Made by a program: the position numbers and the translations under genes
In this document: positions 33,733 to 53,421 of the stretch, one piece after another
How positions within the stretch are numbered: position 1 is the stretch's first letter
Layout: every line of letters begins with the position of its first letter
Source of the DNA: Candidatus Peribacteraceae bacterium
Lineage (GTDB): Bacteria > Patescibacteriota > Gracilibacteria > Peribacterales > Peribacteraceae
Assembly (NCBI GenBank): GCA_028703445.1
Contig: JAQVMW010000001.1
Coordinates: 62,001-126,000 of the forward strand
Length of the DNA stretch: 64,000 bases
Direction of reading: 5' to 3'
The notes under the pieces: model-generated
What the model saw: only the letters and a program-made list of their open reading frames with translations
What the model was told of the DNA's origin: nothing
Database searches by the model: none

Positions 33733-34146
33733 GGGGATGAAATGGTTTCGACAGCGTGATACTGGCGTGGTTTCGCTTCTGTTCGGGAGGGCAACGGTTC
33801 CCGCACCCACTGTTGCACCCAATAAATGCTGATAAAGGCATTTTTGCTGCCCTCGAAGATACGGTTCTCGGCGCGCTCCGCAAGGTGAACGCTGTACCTG
33901 CCTTCGCTCTCGCAGCGTAAGTCCGCTCTACGCGGACACGTCTCACCCTCGATTCTCGCTACAGGAATGAGGCGCAATCAGCGAGGTAGCAGAGCCGTCT
34001 GATGTCGCGGCACTGTGGTCAACCAGGCATCATCCCTCGCACCTTTCTCTGCTCTTCTCTTAGGGCTGCGAGTACGAGAAGTCCATGACAGTACAGGCAG
34101 CGGCGCTACACGTTGGACCCGGGTTCGATTCCCGGCATCTCCACCA
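33733..34146 (+). ncRNA. ssrA: tmRNA
   Basis: Rescues stalled ribosomes. The 5' end GGGGATGAAATGGTTTCGAC and the 3' end GGACCCGGGTTCGATTCCCG close an alanine-type acceptor (GGGGATG with CATCTCC, one G-U) followed by ACCA. A PK1-like fold (GCAACGGT with ACTGTTGC) ends about 9 nt before the resume codon. The tag frame runs from GCT at 33828 to TAA at 33918-33920 and gives 30 residues ending in PAFALAA, with the typical ALAA degron. The tag is unusually long. Confidence 0.93.
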
Positions 34147-45845: not shown

Positions 45846-45920
45846 TCCCCTGTAGCTCAGCGGTAGAGCAGGGCGCTGTTAACGCCAAGGTCGCTGGTTC
45901 GAATCCAGCCGGGGGAGCCA
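45846..45920 (+). tRNA. tRNA-Asn (anticodon GUU), integration target
   Basis: Acceptor TCCCCTG pairs with CGGGGGA, then discriminator G and an encoded CCA. The anticodon stem GGCG/CGCC with loop CTGTTAA gives GTT. The T-arm is CTGGTTCGAATCCAG. The last nine bases, GGGGAGCCA, are the att core shared with the element borders at 53.0, 56.4 and 58.1 kb. Confidence 0.95.
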
Positions 45921-47372
45921 ATTTTCACTTTTATTACACTCAACGATACCTGCAAACACACTTTTCAGCTTGTAGTTGAGCTTTTCGCCTTCTACGGAAG
46001 CGTTCGCAAATACGAAACGTAACAATCGGTTCTTTTGGTCGGGTTGCGAACGCATGAAAAGCTCGGAAGCCCTTTTTGCCACTTCAAGTATGTAAGAGCA
46101 TGAAAGTACGAAGGCTTCATCAGCCTCGGAATGACCCTTCAATTCTTCCAAAAATGTTGCCTCTTGCTGCTTACAGACCACCACTCTTTTGTCGTACTCA
46201 TCGGACGTAATACGCCCGTCCAATCTATCGTCGTACATCGTTGCCATGCGCTTTCTGATTTTCTTCAATTCGCCGTTGATACGTTCCACGTTGTCTTCAT
46301 AGAACGTCTGTTCATCCTTGAAATACATATGCAGCTTTTCGCGCAGGTCATCAACGATTGTGGGCGGGATTGTAAGGTCGGTAAAAATGTTTGAGGCTTG
46401 TTCAAGCAATGTCGCTTCTTTCACATGCACCGCGTTGCAGTTGTGGCAACGCACATAATTGATGTTCTTGGTCGTGTACGTTGAAAGATGCCATCCACAC
46501 TTCGCGCATGTGATAAGCCGTTTGAAGGCAAAGAACTTTGTGTTGTATTTGAGCGGGGTCTTGCCATAGCTTTCGCGGACTTCTTGGCATTTCAACCAGA
46601 GCCACTTTGGAATCAGCTTTTCGTATTTGTGCTGATAGAGTTTTCCTTTGTAATCCATATCACCGTAGTAGAAGGGATTTTTGAGGATTTGCGCTTCAAG
46701 GTAGCTGGTGTACATCGGACGCTGGCTAGATGCGTTCGTAGTCAGCCCCAACTTTGCTAGTTCCTTGGCGAGAGCTTTGATGGAATACCGACCAGTTGAG
46801 TACATTTCAAAAGCCTTCTTTACGAGCGGCGCACGTTCAGGGTCTAGCTCAATCCATGCGCTGCCATCGTCGCGTTCCACGTTCATGTAGCCACACGGGG
46901 CTTTGGTTGCCCACTCGCCATTGCGTACCTTGTGCAGCCAAGTCGTAGCCCCGTCTTCCTGCAATCGGTTGAGGTATTGCTTTGCCAAGAACACCTGCAA
47001 ATCCCAGTCCTGTATATCGCGCCCATAGGAGCTGGCTGTCAGAACAAGGCGGTTATAAACGAAATGCAGTTCCTTTCCTTCTTCCACACGCAGGTTGTCC
47101 AGCAAGACGGCATCGCGGAAGTTGCGAGTAGTTCTGTCCACGCGATACGCGAGTATCGCACCGATGTCGGGTTGGCTTTTTACATGGGCAATCAGTTCAT
47201 CAAATCGCTTTCGTATTTTGTGACCTGCACTTTCTTGGAAGACAAACTCTTTTGTAACTTCCATGCCCTTTTCCTTCGCATAGGCGCGTAGTGTTTCCAA
47301 CTGATTGTCCAAGGACAATCCTTCTTCTTCCTGTCGTTTGCTGGATACGCGGGCGAGGATTACAGCTTTCAT
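45879..47372 (-). CDS. Large serine recombinase (integrase) of element 1
   Basis: 497 aa. The catalytic domain starts MKAVILARVSSKRQEEEGLSL with the nucleophile Ser in ARVSS. A recombinase domain (KAPCGYMNVERDD, YTSYLEAQILKNPFYYGD), a zinc ribbon (CAKCGWHL, CHNCN) and a coiled coil follow. The last 13 residues (WLPRLDSNQRPWR) and the TAA stop are antisense tRNA-Asn, so the original tail was lost on integration. ATG at 47372 overlaps the stop of the Rep gene (ATGA). Confidence 0.93.
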   Translation of the reverse strand: MKAVILARVSSKRQEEEGLSLDNQLETLRAYAKEKGMEVTKEFVFQESAGHKIRKRFDELIAHVKSQPDIGAILAYRVDRTTRNFRDAVLLDNLRVEEGKELHFVYNRLVLTASSYGRDIQDWDLQVFLAKQYLNRLQEDGATTWLHKVRNGEWATKAPCGYMNVERDDGSAWIELDPERAPLVKKAFEMYSTGRYSIKALAKELAKLGLTTNASSQRPMYTSYLEAQILKNPFYYGDMDYKGKLYQHKYEKLIPKWLWLKCQEVRESYGKTPLKYNTKFFAFKRLITCAKCGWHLSTYTTKNINYVRCHNCNAVHVKEATLLEQASNIFTDLTIPPTIVDDLREKLHMYFKDEQTFYEDNVERINGELKKIRKRMATMYDDRLDGRITSDEYDKRVVVCKQQEATFLEELKGHSEADEAFVLSCSYILEVAKRASELFMRSQPDQKNRLLRFVFANASVEGEKLNYKLKSVFAGIVECNKSENWLPRLDSNQRPWR

Positions 47373-48574
47373 AGTGGTTGTGGGGACAATATAGCAAAAT
47401 CTGTACTTTTTAGAGGTACAAAGGTTTCTAGTGCCTTTGTCACATGCTGGAACGGCTTTGCCTTGTTGAGTATGCGGAAGTCCAGCCCCTTGATGTCCTT
47501 GTATATGCGTTCCAATGTGCGTGGCGAGAAACGTTTTACGAGGCGGCTGCGGGTCTTTCGGTGTCCCTCGGTGCGTATCATGGCACAGATAGCAACAGCC
47601 GCGAGTGAACGCTGTGGCTTCCACTGCGGACGCTGTTTCACGATGAGCGCGAACTGTTGGGACGCATCAAGTTCTTGCAACAAAACGGGAACCAATTGCT
47701 CATAGATGTCATCCCAGTAGTCACGAAGTAGAGCTTGTGACATGCGCTTACTGAACAGCGATTGCAGTGTGCAGTCGCTATCAATGCCGACCTTTTCAAA
47801 CAGAGCTTTCATTTTTTGCTGGCTTTTCAGGCGCAGTTCCAACCGCAGGACTTCCACAGGCTTACCTTGTCGCCGTACCGCATCAAAGATGTTCATTTGC
47901 AGATTGCAATCGCGTTCTTCTTTTTCCATCGCCCTGTCCGCGCTTTTCGTGAGGTCTGCAACTTTGTCGTACAGCACAAACTCGTATGCCTTGGAGTAGT
48001 AGCGTACTGCCTCGCCTTGATTGCGGAAGTCCGTGCGGTTCAAATCCATGTGTCTGTTCATCTTTATTTTTTCCAAATCGGCAAGAATCATGCTCGCCGT
48101 AGTGAAGTCATCAAACATGATGTTCTTGGAGTAGTGGACGGCATGGACGGCTGCGGAACGCAGGTTGTCCTGCGTGACAAGCACGCCCATGAGCAAGAGC
48201 TGCTTTTTGAGTGCGGCTATAACCGCATCAAAATGCACGTCGTCTAACTCATCAAAGTTGTTTCCAAAAATCAGTTTCGGCAGCGACAGTTCTATGTGCA
48301 GATTGATGCGAAAGCCGCCGTGAGCAACGCGCTTGTAAATGGTAAGGCGTGGACGGTAGATGCCCTGTTTGAGGTCTTCCTTGCTAGGGTTGTTGATGGC
48401 TTTGAGATACGGCTGTCCGTGGAATGGTAGATAAGGTTGGCGAAGCAAACCCATGGCGTTCGGTTCAAAGCTGTCAGGCTTCGTGACCGAAAACTTGTCG
48501 GCTGGGATTTTGAGTAAGACGGTATCAATCATGGTTACAACTTTGGGGCGGTAAAGACGGGGCTTTTCAGCCAT
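47369..48574 (-). CDS. Phage/plasmid replication protein, gene II/X family
   Basis: Initiator of rolling-circle replication of the filamentous-phage type. MIDTVLLKIPADKF is the family start; RLTIYKRV, IELSLPKLIFGNN, VHYSKNIMFDD, LNRTDFRNQGEAVRYYS and VLYDKVADL are its successive motifs. 401 aa from the first ATG; MIDTV at 48532 could be the true start. It overlaps the SpoVG-like gene upstream and the recombinase downstream. Confidence 0.85.
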   Translation of the reverse strand: MAEKPRLYRPKVVTMIDTVLLKIPADKFSVTKPDSFEPNAMGLLRQPYLPFHGQPYLKAINNPSKEDLKQGIYRPRLTIYKRVAHGGFRINLHIELSLPKLIFGNNFDELDDVHFDAVIAALKKQLLLMGVLVTQDNLRSAAVHAVHYSKNIMFDDFTTASMILADLEKIKMNRHMDLNRTDFRNQGEAVRYYSKAYEFVLYDKVADLTKSADRAMEKEERDCNLQMNIFDAVRRQGKPVEVLRLELRLKSQQKMKALFEKVGIDSDCTLQSLFSKRMSQALLRDYWDDIYEQLVPVLLQELDASQQFALIVKQRPQWKPQRSLAAVAICAMIRTEGHRKTRSRLVKRFSPRTLERIYKDIKGLDFRILNKAKPFQHVTKALETFVPLKSTDFAILSPQPL

Positions 48575-48833
48575 GTAGTTTTAGGTATTCCTCAAACAGC
48601 ACCTGCTCTATCGCCTTGGATAGTTCGGGTGTGATGGGATGGAAAATGGTGCGGTCTTCGTTGCCAGCGCGTTTCGTCGGGTACGTCAGACGAAAGCCCG
48701 AACCATCCAGCTTTCGGTGAATGGCGATTGAGTTGAGGCGTATGTTCCCATTGAGAACAACGCTGGCGAAGGCAAGAAGCCCGTTCATGGGCGGCACGGG
48801 TGTAATCCGCACCTGTGAGATGTCATAGGTCAT
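48567..48833 (-). CDS. SpoVG-like protein
   Basis: 88 aa, start MTYDISQVRITPVPP. The segments ISQVRITPV, LLAFASVVLNGNIRLNSIAI, GFRLTYPTKR and FHPITPELSKAIEQVL follow the SpoVG fold, a small nucleic-acid-binding protein. The gene overlaps both neighbours by 8-11 nt, so it belongs to the replication operon of the element. Confidence 0.8.
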   Translation of the reverse strand: MTYDISQVRITPVPPMNGLLAFASVVLNGNIRLNSIAIHRKLDGSGFRLTYPTKRAGNEDRTIFHPITPELSKAIEQVLFEEYLKLHG

Positions 48834-49017
48834 CGGCTTGCTGGGAAAGGCGTAGGTCGCGGTCAATTTCAATAAGCAACGCGAAGAAACCGACGAGGCT
48901 GTTGCTCGCGTCAGCAAACTCATCGTCGTCCAACGATTTGTTGCACAGCTTTTCGTATCCCTGTCGTGTTGCGTCAGTTTCCACTGACGACACGATAGGA
49001 AACAGGCTTCCGCTCAA
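48823..49017 (-). CDS. Small protein of the replication operon
   Basis: 64 aa, TTG start (SGSLFPIVSSVETDATRQGY). Acidic middle KSLDDDEFADASNS, then hydrophobic GFFALLIEIDRDL. Its end overlaps the SpoVG-like start by 11 nt. No family is recognised; the start codon is uncertain. Confidence 0.5.
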   Translation of the reverse strand: MSGSLFPIVSSVETDATRQGYEKLCNKSLDDDEFADASNSLVGFFALLIEIDRDLRLSQQADDL

Positions 49018-49085: not shown

Positions 49086-50006
49086 TTAGAGCAGACTTTG
49101 TGTCACACGGGCGGGTACGGTCAGATTGATTGTGGTCGTGTCCTTGGCGATTATCGGAAAACCAAATGTCTTGTTAGCCTTGCGGTTGATACCATCAACT
49201 GCATTTTTGATTTTGTCCTTTTCTGCTGCGCCAAGCGTCGTGCGCTGCTCGCCGAACATGTGGTTGTACGCATCAATCATTTCCACTTTTTCGCCGATGC
49301 TGTACTGGAATATAAAGGCGCAGAGTGATGCCTCGTTGCTGTCTACTTTCAGCGGACAGACAAAATCGTAGAAGCACACCTTGGCTTGGTCTATCAGGTA
49401 CGTCAGTGGGCTGCGGATGTCCTCGGACAGAGTTTTGTAGAAGCCCATGAGTACGGCGACCTTGGCATCAAGGTTGCGCGTTATGTTGATGTACTTTGCA
49501 AAGCCATACGAGCCGCCGAATGGCGAAGGATTGGAATAAAACTCGCCCCGTGCGTCCATGAACGTGTGAATAGGCGTGAAGTCCATAAAGATGCCTTCCA
49601 GTATTTCCGTTGTCTCATCGCGCCAGTCGGCGTATTTCTGTTCCAGTTCTTCCATTCTTGGTTCCGCGATTTTGGAAGAAAAGCCGTCGTGACCCAAAAA
49701 AGATGGAACCGATGGCATCATGGCTTCCATCACAGCCAGACCGCCAAAGGCTTTGGCAGGATTGGGTATTGAGACTTTGCTGCCGTCAGGCATTGCCCAT
49801 TCAAGGTTGTCGGGCTGACTTTGTGCCGCCTTGATTGCCCTTTGCCGTTTTTCTTCTGCGCCAGTGACGTATTCTTCGTGTTCGGCTTCAATGTCCTTTT
49901 CCATTTTTTCGTACATTGAATGTAGAAGTCGTCCTGTCTTCGTACCCGCTTTCACAAGCGCATCTACCGCTTGAACGGCAGCCTTCGGTGACACTTTCAG
50001 TCGCAT
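49086..50006 (-). CDS. Element protein of 306 aa, unknown function
   Basis: The N-terminus MRLKVSPKAAVQAVDALVKAG is followed by a Glu/Lys-rich coiled region (about 30-60) and a folded part with PIHTFMDARGEFYSNPSPFGG and CFYDFVCPLKVDSN. No known domain is recognised. The first gene of the minus-strand operon. A fragment starting MRLKVSPKEAL is found in element 2 (53318-53421), so this protein belongs to the conserved core of the element family. Confidence 0.65.
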   Translation of the reverse strand: MRLKVSPKAAVQAVDALVKAGTKTGRLLHSMYEKMEKDIEAEHEEYVTGAEEKRQRAIKAAQSQPDNLEWAMPDGSKVSIPNPAKAFGGLAVMEAMMPSVPSFLGHDGFSSKIAEPRMEELEQKYADWRDETTEILEGIFMDFTPIHTFMDARGEFYSNPSPFGGSYGFAKYINITRNLDAKVAVLMGFYKTLSEDIRSPLTYLIDQAKVCFYDFVCPLKVDSNEASLCAFIFQYSIGEKVEMIDAYNHMFGEQRTTLGAAEKDKIKNAVDGINRKANKTFGFPIIAKDTTTINLTVPARVTQSLL

Positions 50007-50068: not shown

Positions 50069-50296
50069 TTACGAAGGAAACCGCAGCAATTCCCAAAGTT
50101 CCATATCAAACGCACCTGCCAGCTTTTCCAGCGTGATGATGGTGGCGTTTTTCTTTTGTACGCGAGCTTCAAGGACTTGAACGTAGTAAAGGCTCAATCC
50201 AGCCTTCTGCGCGAGTTTTTCCTGCGTGAGTTCGTGCTTGGCGCGTAGCTGCCGTATTCTTTCTGCCAGTTTTATGCGGATGTCCGTGTTTTTCAC
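50069..50296 (-). CDS. XRE-family repressor
   Basis: 75 aa helix-turn-helix protein: IRIKLAERIRQLRAKHELT, QEKLAQKAGLSLYYVQVLE, then ITLEKLAGAFDMELWELL. Divergent from the zinc-ribbon gene, with a 20-bp perfect palindrome between them. It is the likely regulator of the element. Confidence 0.9.
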   Translation of the reverse strand: MKNTDIRIKLAERIRQLRAKHELTQEKLAQKAGLSLYYVQVLEARVQKKNATIITLEKLAGAFDMELWELLRFPS

Positions 50297-51844: not shown

Positions 51845-52039
51845 ATGCTCGCTGAAATTGGTATCATGGTCGGTTTCTACATCCTAACGAGGATGCTGAC
51901 GATTGAACGGAATAAGGACGGAAAAGTGTCTTCTTTCGGCAAGGTGTTCGCAGCGGTCACGTTCATCGTCACGGCTATTATAATCATTGACTTGGCGATG
52001 CGTGGCTTATCGGCAAGCAGCGCGATGCCGTCGCTCTAA
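51845..52039 (+). CDS. Small two-helix membrane protein
   Basis: 64 aa: MLAEIGIMVGFYILTRML, then VFAAVTFIVTAIIIIDLAM. It follows the zinc-ribbon gene by 18 nt, probably in one transcript. Holin-like in size, but no family is recognised. Confidence 0.65.
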   Translation: MLAEIGIMVGFYILTRMLTIERNKDGKVSSFGKVFAAVTFIVTAIIIIDLAMRGLSASSAMPSL

Positions 52040-52884
52040 GCCATCCCTTCCATCCTCGCTGGATTGAGGCGTGGGTCACTGCCCTGTCTCATTTTCAGCA
52101 TGGCAGAGGCGAGGATTTCTTCTACGAGATTTGCTCGCCATACAACGCCAATGTGACTGTCCAAACCATCTTCTTCAAAGTCTTCACCAATACGCAGTCT
52201 TCCCGAATAAACACCCAAGAACTTGTCGTTTACTCTGCCGTTCATCAAATTGGTCTGGCTGGTTCTGACGCTGCCGATGCGCCGCGCAATTACCATAGAA
52301 CCAGACATACTTGGTTTCGTTGTGCTGCTAATCAGAAAAGCGGGTAGCCCTTTCCAATCCACGGCAAAGTCGGTCGCCAACGCGCCATTGACCCAGATTG
52401 GCAATAAGCCACCTGCCGACTGCCCGAACGGGTAGCCGACGACCGTTACCTGTTCCGTGGGCAACAAGTCCATATCAGTATCTTTCAGGCTCAAATCCAA
52501 ATCGTTCGGCGCAATGCCCGTCGGATAGTTGGGAATTGGTAATGCGACGACATCAACTTGGTCAGCATGAGTAGGATGTTCAAACCATTGAGGTGTCTGC
52601 GCCGCGTCCAACAGTGGAACGCTGACGATTTTGCAGAAGTCCATGCTCATCATCGCCCTCAATTTGAAATTGAGCTTATTGGGTATTCCTAATGCCGCGT
52701 TGCCGACAACGACATGACGATTGGTGATAAGAAAAGGGGTTTCCTCGCTTTTCACAACAAAGCCCGTTGCTGTCCCAAGCTGCGTTTCATCTCGGAAAGG
52801 CGCGAGCATGAGGGGTATCAAGGATAAGCCGTCCACACCTATACCGCGTGGCGTTCCTTCGGTGGTTTGTCCGTTGGGTGTCAT
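52036..52884 (-). CDS. Trypsin-like serine protease
   Basis: 282 aa. His in GFVVKSEETPFLITNRHVV, Asp in QVDVVALPIPN and Ser in PSMSGSMVIAR give the usual triad order, although the Ser loop lacks the common GNSGGP. There is no signal peptide, so it acts in the cytoplasm or on phage/element proteins. Its ATG overlaps the stop of the recombinase tail (ATGA), which means it is translated together with the recombinase in the circular form. Confidence 0.8.
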   Translation of the reverse strand: MTPNGQTTEGTPRGIGVDGLSLIPLMLAPFRDETQLGTATGFVVKSEETPFLITNRHVVVGNAALGIPNKLNFKLRAMMSMDFCKIVSVPLLDAAQTPQWFEHPTHADQVDVVALPIPNYPTGIAPNDLDLSLKDTDMDLLPTEQVTVVGYPFGQSAGGLLPIWVNGALATDFAVDWKGLPAFLISSTTKPSMSGSMVIARRIGSVRTSQTNLMNGRVNDKFLGVYSGRLRIGEDFEEDGLDSHIGVVWRANLVEEILASAMLKMRQGSDPRLNPARMEGMA

Positions 52885-53363
52885 AGACGGGCATAATACC
52901 GCTCATCCATTTGTACTGGAACCACGAACCCTGTGAGCTTTATTTCCCTGCCAAGGTCTATAATGTCTTGCGCCCAATCCGTTCGCATACGTTCAAGGAT
53001 GGGGAGCCATTCTTGTGATTTGACACACTGTACGATCCCTGAGAAGGGACTTTTCAGGTTGTAGATGAGCTTTTCGCCCTTCACGCTCGCGTTCGCAAGT
53101 ACGAACCGCAGAAGACGGTTCTTTTGAGCGGCCTGCGAACGGGCGAAGAGGTCGGATGCGCGTTGCAGCAGTTCCAGCAGGTAAGAACATGAAATCAGGA
53201 ATGTCTCGTCGGCCTTGCTATGTGACCGCATTTCGTCGTGTAGTTGCTCTTCTTTGGACTTCATCTGCACGATCAGTTTGTCGTACTCGTCGTGGGTAAT
53301 TCCTCTGAATACCAAGAGCGTACTCGGCCTCTGATTCCATCGAACAAAGAAGAACACTGCCAT
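52881..53363 (-). pseudogene. Hybrid recombinase remnant: element 2 body + element 1 tail
   Basis: 160 codons match the last third of the element 1 recombinase: HDEYDKLIVQMKSKEEQL, FLISCSYLLELLQRASDLF, QKNRLLRFVLANASVKGEKL. At the core (codons WLP, 53001-53009) it passes into the natural recombinase C-terminus, ILERMRTDWAQDIIDLGRE. Upstream of 53363 the gene is lost. I read it as the right border of element 1 joined to a truncated recombinase of element 2. Confidence 0.8.
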
Positions 53364-53421
53364 TCAGAACAAGCTCATTGATTTTACTGAGTGCCTCTTT
53401 TGGTGACACTTTTAGGCGCAT
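53318..53421 (-). pseudogene. Fragment of a second MRLKVSPK gene
   Basis: The frame starts MRLKVSPKEALSKINELV, like the 306-aa gene of element 1, but after about 35 codons runs into recombinase sequence in another frame. A deletion of several kilobases inside element 2 explains this. Confidence 0.65.

Follow-up and report, generated by a model that had tools for sequence, protein, structure and literature searches.

The C-terminus of a large serine recombinase (LSR) is exchanged when the element that carries its gene integrates into a tRNA gene. In the window, the 64,000-nucleotide stretch of a Candidatus Peribacteraceae genome analyzed here, the integrated recombinase ends in codons read from the antisense strand of tRNA-Asn, and its predicted free form would end in a longer tail that now lies at the far end of the element. 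The overall reading, that attP lies in the last codons of the LSR gene and that the state-dependent exchange of the tail alters the enzyme, is on balance probable.

Tail exchange at the tRNA-Asn locus

The integrative element is ~7.1 kb long and is bounded by tRNA-Asn (45846-45920) and position 53009, with the core GGGGAGCCA at both ends, at the 3' end of the tRNA gene (attL) and at attR (Table 1). Its genes encode the recombinase, Rep, a SpoVG-like protein, a 306-aa protein, an HTH regulator, a DUF4352 protein, and a trypsin-like protease. The recombinase contains the resolvase catalytic domain (PF00239, 1e-13) and the Recombinase domain (PF07508, 3.6e-13), with R8, V9, and S10 invariant. Its C-terminal domain matches the A118 integrase (4kis, E 3.7e-16 over 177-470), and the structural model predicts helices at 337-384 and 390-413 (coiled coil).

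The open reading frame (ORF) of the integrated recombinase runs on the minus strand from 47372 to 45879 and terminates in ECNKSENW, followed by LPRLDSNQRPWR. The TGG codon of W485 is the antisense of CCA, the next 12 tail codons are all antisense tRNA-Asn, and the TAA stop (45881-45879) overlaps the anticodon. In the model, this tail, which lies past the complete body, is predicted to be disordered (pLDDT below 50 at 488-497). The core, TGGCTCCCC on the minus strand, recurs at 53009 in the same reading frame, with a constant offset of 7089 and no gap, and the frame continues past the attR core as LPILERMRTDWAQDIIDLGREIKLTGFVVPVQMDERYYARL, 41 residues in length. The element's own circle, whose junction is deduced from these two ends, would encode in frame a recombinase of 526 codons ending in W-LPILERMRTDWAQDIIDLGREIK...ARL. 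The first-pass annotation had claimed that the integrated protein ends in antisense tRNA-Asn codons with a TAA stop, that the circle form would end in 19 plus about 20 residues, and that integration changes the protein. The ORF translation bears out the first of these claims, the 41-residue in-frame continuation at attR agrees with the second, and the C-terminus is indeed swapped in the predicted frame.

Host DNA was rejected as the source of the codons to the right of attR (53010-53300); this segment is the C-terminal fragment of an older recombinase that is related (~60-62% identical), and the locus is, therefore, a tandem insertion site. In a genome of the same genus that lacks the element (L225), tRNA-Asn adjoins the same neighboring gene and the site is empty, and the 3' end of the tRNA, CCGGGGGAGCCA, is repeated ~90 bp downstream. 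Elsewhere in the window (33733-34146), there is a tmRNA whose predicted tag, ADKGIFAALEDTVLGALRKVNAVPAFALAA, is unusually long.

Table 1. Features of the element and its borders in the window.
Feature	Position	Strand	Basis
Large serine recombinase (integrase), integrated form, 497 aa	45879..47372	-	PF00239, PF07508; A118 integrase CTD by profile; translation
tRNA-Asn(gtt), integration target; 3' end = attB/attL	45846..45920	+	ARAGORN
Antisense-tRNA tail LPRLDSNQRPWR and stop of the integrated recombinase	45879..45917	-	Translation; predicted disordered
attL core TGGCTCCCC; inferred crossover dinucleotide TC 45916-45915	45912..45920	-	9-bp repeat; dyad of attR arms
attB-type zinc-domain motif GATTCGAAC, antisense of tRNA T loop	45897..45905	-	Crossover-based numbering of PMC3783163
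attR core TGGCTCCCC; inferred crossover dinucleotide 53005-53004	53001..53009	-	9-bp repeat, motif scan
attP-type zinc-domain motif TATGCGAAC, positions 16-24 from crossover	52981..52989	-	Motif scan
Free-form recombinase tail (W + 41 codons + TGA), separated from its own gene	52881..53009	-	Junction reading, codon-position test
Trypsin-like protease; ATG overlaps tail TGA (ATGA)	52036..52884	-	PF13365
C-terminal fragment of older related recombinase, begins at ATTAC	53010..53300	-	Sequence comparison
N-terminal remnant, second copy of MRLKVSPK gene, fused to recombinase fragment	53301..53421	-	Comparison with ORF 49086-50006
GTATTAC within recombinase gene, putative Rep nick site	46207..46213	-	Motif comparison
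Rolling-circle Rep (G2P/Phage_CRI-like)	47369..48574	-	4/14 homologues match PF05144, best 3.1e-8
SpoVG-like protein	48567..48923	-	PF04026
306-aa element protein (MRLKVSPK...), no family assigned	49086..50006	-	ORF
HTH regulator	50069..50296	-	PF01381

Attachment sites and related recombinases

In the attR sequence, the inverted arms CAAGAAT...ATCCTTG flank the core, and the crossover is therefore placed at TC. Numbered from the crossover, GATTCGAAC occupies positions 11-19 of the half-site on the tRNA side, where it corresponds to the T loop, and TATGCGAAC occupies positions 16-24 of the half-site on the tail side. This offset of 10 on the tRNA side and 15 on the tail side is the same 5-bp shift of the zinc-domain motif that distinguishes attB from attP in the A118 integrase (PMC3783163), observed here for the P' arm only, the arm on the integrase side having no clear motif. 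When all the loci were scanned, CGAAC was found at offset 10 in the tRNA-side sites following the core and at offset 15 in the non-tRNA sites, or 16 in a single locus (L116), with a few chance matches outside the 10/15 offsets given by the loose scan pattern. The strict tail-side pattern, TGGCTCCCC-N14-[CG]CGAAC, returned 29 matches in 22 of the 353 genomes of the class, and its reversed control none in the same 353 genomes. The zinc-domain motif is thus the conserved T loop of the tRNA, which would provide a simple reason for the use of many tRNAs: the zinc domain would recognize the T loop, which is nearly universal, at a constant spacing, and the acceptor stem would supply the core.

The arrangement is general among the recombinases of the class. 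An antisense tRNA is found at the end of, or is traversed by, 62 of the 69 complete LSR ORFs, whereas only one of 523 other long ORFs has its end in a tRNA in this way, and the tRNAs involved are Asn, Gln, Lys, Glu, Tyr, Val, Ser, Gly, and His, together with Arg, Met, Asp, Pro, Ile, and Trp. Two of the seven exceptions nonetheless read an antisense tRNA: in L036 a group I intron interrupts the tRNA-Asn, and in L126 the tRNA is not recognized as a whole. A Legionella plasmid (tRNA-Asn), a Neochlamydia plasmid (tRNA-Tyr), and a fecal phage contig (tRNA-Leu) each carry a relative with the same arrangement; in a second fecal contig, tRNA-Glu lies just past the match. The exchange accounts for recombinases with DSNQRP-like peptide ends. 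The integrated tail extends from 2 to about 100 aa past the W, depending on the tRNA, and a sequence-specific signal in the acquired tail was rejected because these tails vary freely with the tRNA used; if any signal exists, only the loss of the free tail could be it.

The group I intron in tRNA-Asn is present in two sister species (L223, 806-1066; L224, 943-1247; L036, 8234-8538), and in L036 the reading of the recombinase continues from the antisense tRNA into the antisense intron.

Both protein states of such a recombinase occur in nature, in a distant family of phage LSRs that was recovered by scanning IMG/VR with the tail-side pattern and is ~22-26% identical to the recombinase of the window. 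In this family, the ORF passes through the core into a conserved tail. The collection contains 45 free and 32 integrated forms, the bodies of which match up to the W, where the tails switch. One free form (L298), for example, ends in SERKW-LPEPSLLGTIRVPMVVFTRKLPPQLRKAA, and an integrated form (L306), with a tRNA-Asn identified by ARAGORN, ends in SERKW-LPLPDSNGGPAD, the two bodies being 99.2% identical over 514 aa; the same relation links free L272 and integrated L284. ARAGORN identifies a tRNA in 10 of the integrated forms, and 22 terminate no more than 100 nt from the end of the locus, as expected of trimmed proviruses, any other case being assigned from the peptide alone. None of the free forms has an ARAGORN tRNA, and three terminate as close to the end of their locus. 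The free tails end in -AA, in the manner of an ssrA tag, in 30 of the 45 cases, against none of the 32 integrated forms, and a net positive charge was found in all 44 of the free tails tested. No relative was found when IMG/VR was scanned with P0001 for free circles from the clade of the window.

Possible role of the free tail

In the favored mechanism, attP is built into the last codons of the recombinase's own gene, and recombination with attB at the 3' end of tRNA-Asn places the crossover (TC in TGGCTCCCC) between the body and the tail. The free circle would encode a recombinase with a tail of ~40 residues, and the integrated element encodes an identical body that ends in an antisense-tRNA tail, short and predicted to be disordered. 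The integrated copy would be a different recombinase, probably less competent for integration, and the switch of state, modelled on Mx8 Int and on integration-dependent immunity, would need no extra regulator. Tail exchange as a functional switch, which the first-pass annotation had suggested as a possible choice between integration and excision, is plausible from the sequences, and the loss of the tail may, by analogy, alter the activity or the lifetime of the enzyme.

The closest precedent is the Int of the Myxococcus phage Mx8, in which attP lies within int, integration gives the gene a new 3' end, and the altered integrase is reported to be changed in its specificity, not inactive (PMC6070905). 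The likeness is in the attP core inside the int frame and the new 3' end. Compared with Mx8, the enzyme here is a large serine recombinase, which occurs both in elements of the Patescibacteria and in another family, from phages; the targets are many different tRNAs, and antisense tRNA codons form the new end. In the integration-dependent immunity of the mycobacteriophage BPs and its relatives, attP lies in a coding sequence, and integration removes a C-terminal segment of the repressor, together with the ssrA-like tag of its free form (PMC4557955, PMC9934374). The -AA end of the 30 phage-family free tails, removed in the integrated forms, resembles this tag and may be a signal for degradation; the switched gene, however, is the repressor in BPs and the integrase itself here, and the window's clade has no -AA end. 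The serine integrase of the Listeria phage A118 shares the domain layout and the 5-bp motif shift, whereas it is not reported to have attP within its own gene (PMC3783163), and the target here is a tRNA.

The main competing explanation is that the exchange is a harmless by-product, with attP lying in the last part of the recombinase gene to save space and the exchange having no regulatory role: the body would be complete at W485, any tail would be tolerated, and the start of the tail would be conserved as attP DNA. This is possible but doubtful. Integrated tails of any length and sequence are compatible with it, and the body appears to be tolerant because the integrated forms work with tails of such different lengths. 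The P' arm dictates the first 10 codons of the free tail, and in a second set of tail-side sites the tails are short and not conserved (WLPRLDAVRTFYV and others like it). In the window's clade, however, the free tails share W-L-P-x-L-x-x-[ML]-R-T-[DE]-W-x-[QE]-[ED]-I-x-[ED]-L, and codons 11-24, which lie past the att motif, keep their amino acids and vary mostly at the third position (p = 0.0002 with nine sequences, 0.0008 with seven, and 0.007 with five, by permutation within codon columns, the sequences tested being related to each other). The same test found no third-position excess in codons 24-33, and in the phage family it was not significant (p about 0.09-0.12). These results support selection on the free tail of the window's clade as protein, and its first ~24 residues look like a conserved amphipathic helix. 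The -AA end of two thirds of the phage free tails also argues against a by-product. The tails in the window's clade end in ARL, TAV, NQC, AYG, MAV, and CTV; an -AA degron was thus rejected there, since no free tail has this ending. A common function of the tail is not evident, given that the free tails of the two families, helical in one and basic with -AA in the other, are unrelated.

It is rather unlikely that the main switch is transcriptional, with the circle joining the recombinase and the protease, or other cargo, in an operon that integration separates. The first-pass annotation had predicted that the stop of the circle form would overlap the protease start, and the tail TGA (52883-52881) does overlap the ATG (52884) as ATGA. 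In the archaeal virus SNJ2, also a rolling-circle element, circularization rebuilds an operon and its coding arrangement beside the integrase (PMC13107129), although the integrase and Rep families differ, and a downstream ORF is created there with no new integrase tail. Among ten other attR sites, however, the -4 overlap is found in only one, with a doubtful TTG start, and other elements differ in their cargo and gaps. The annotation's claim that integration cuts the protease off from the recombinase consequently holds for this element, but not as a general mechanism, since the overlap is not conserved in the relatives.

It is highly improbable that the repeat at the right end is a relic of an earlier element, with the true circle junction elsewhere, even though 53010-53300 is an old recombinase fragment: chance or debris was rejected on the conserved offset, the zero controls, and the presence of the same core, motif offset, and tail, but no recombinase fragment, in L036, L047, L150, L152, and L155.

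A literature search of partial coverage found no description of such a tail exchange for serine integrases; the exchange is a variant of the known Mx8-like principle, and its novelty is judged with moderate certainty. More broadly, and as a tentative proposal, attP may also be the point at which a C-terminal control tail is detached, in two or more lineages of serine integrases that target tRNAs and are only distantly related to each other. The tail would be a conserved helix in the elements of the Peribacteria and an ssrA-like -AA degron in the phages, and integration itself would reset how active or how long-lived the integrase is, with neither a repressor nor a directionality factor. The swapped tail may serve as an automatic marker of the integrated state. 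How the directionality of serine integrases is controlled is a central question, and a bottleneck for their use in engineering. The matched natural pairs of integrases with and without a defined tail, tied to the state of integration, make this question directly testable in vitro.

Rep and the recombinase fragments

The PF05144 match that suggests a Rep of the filamentous-phage G2P (Phage_CRI) type was obtained with homologues and not with the window copy itself, and a fold search of the Rep against the PDB gave no confident match. The motif GTATTAC is present in frame in 11 of the 12 recombinase genes that adjoin Rep, as against three of the 59 others, and is kept in genes where the codon encodes R, S, or C alike. 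C-terminal pieces of this recombinase stand alone in many genomes, and about a dozen share the exact start ATTAC (window 53010-53300, L040, L047, L048, L049, L050, L051, L115, and L116, for example). The DNA upstream of these fragments is unrelated, and mostly ends in GAGA or similar, with a consensus near GGAGA. N-terminal counterparts were not found among the loci compared, and the idea that the fragments are a separate gene was rejected, as they have no consistent start codon. On the simplest reading, Rep might nick at GTATTAC in the recombinase gene, and early termination of the rolling circle might generate small circles that lack the recombinase N-terminus and keep attP.

Tandem arrays of elements of 1-3 kb are also found at tRNA-Asn, in L115 (2050, 3105, 6189, 8223) and L049 (3844, 6074, 7594, 8658). 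These elements have attP-type sites at their bounds and no full recombinase, and are likely to be non-autonomous derivatives.
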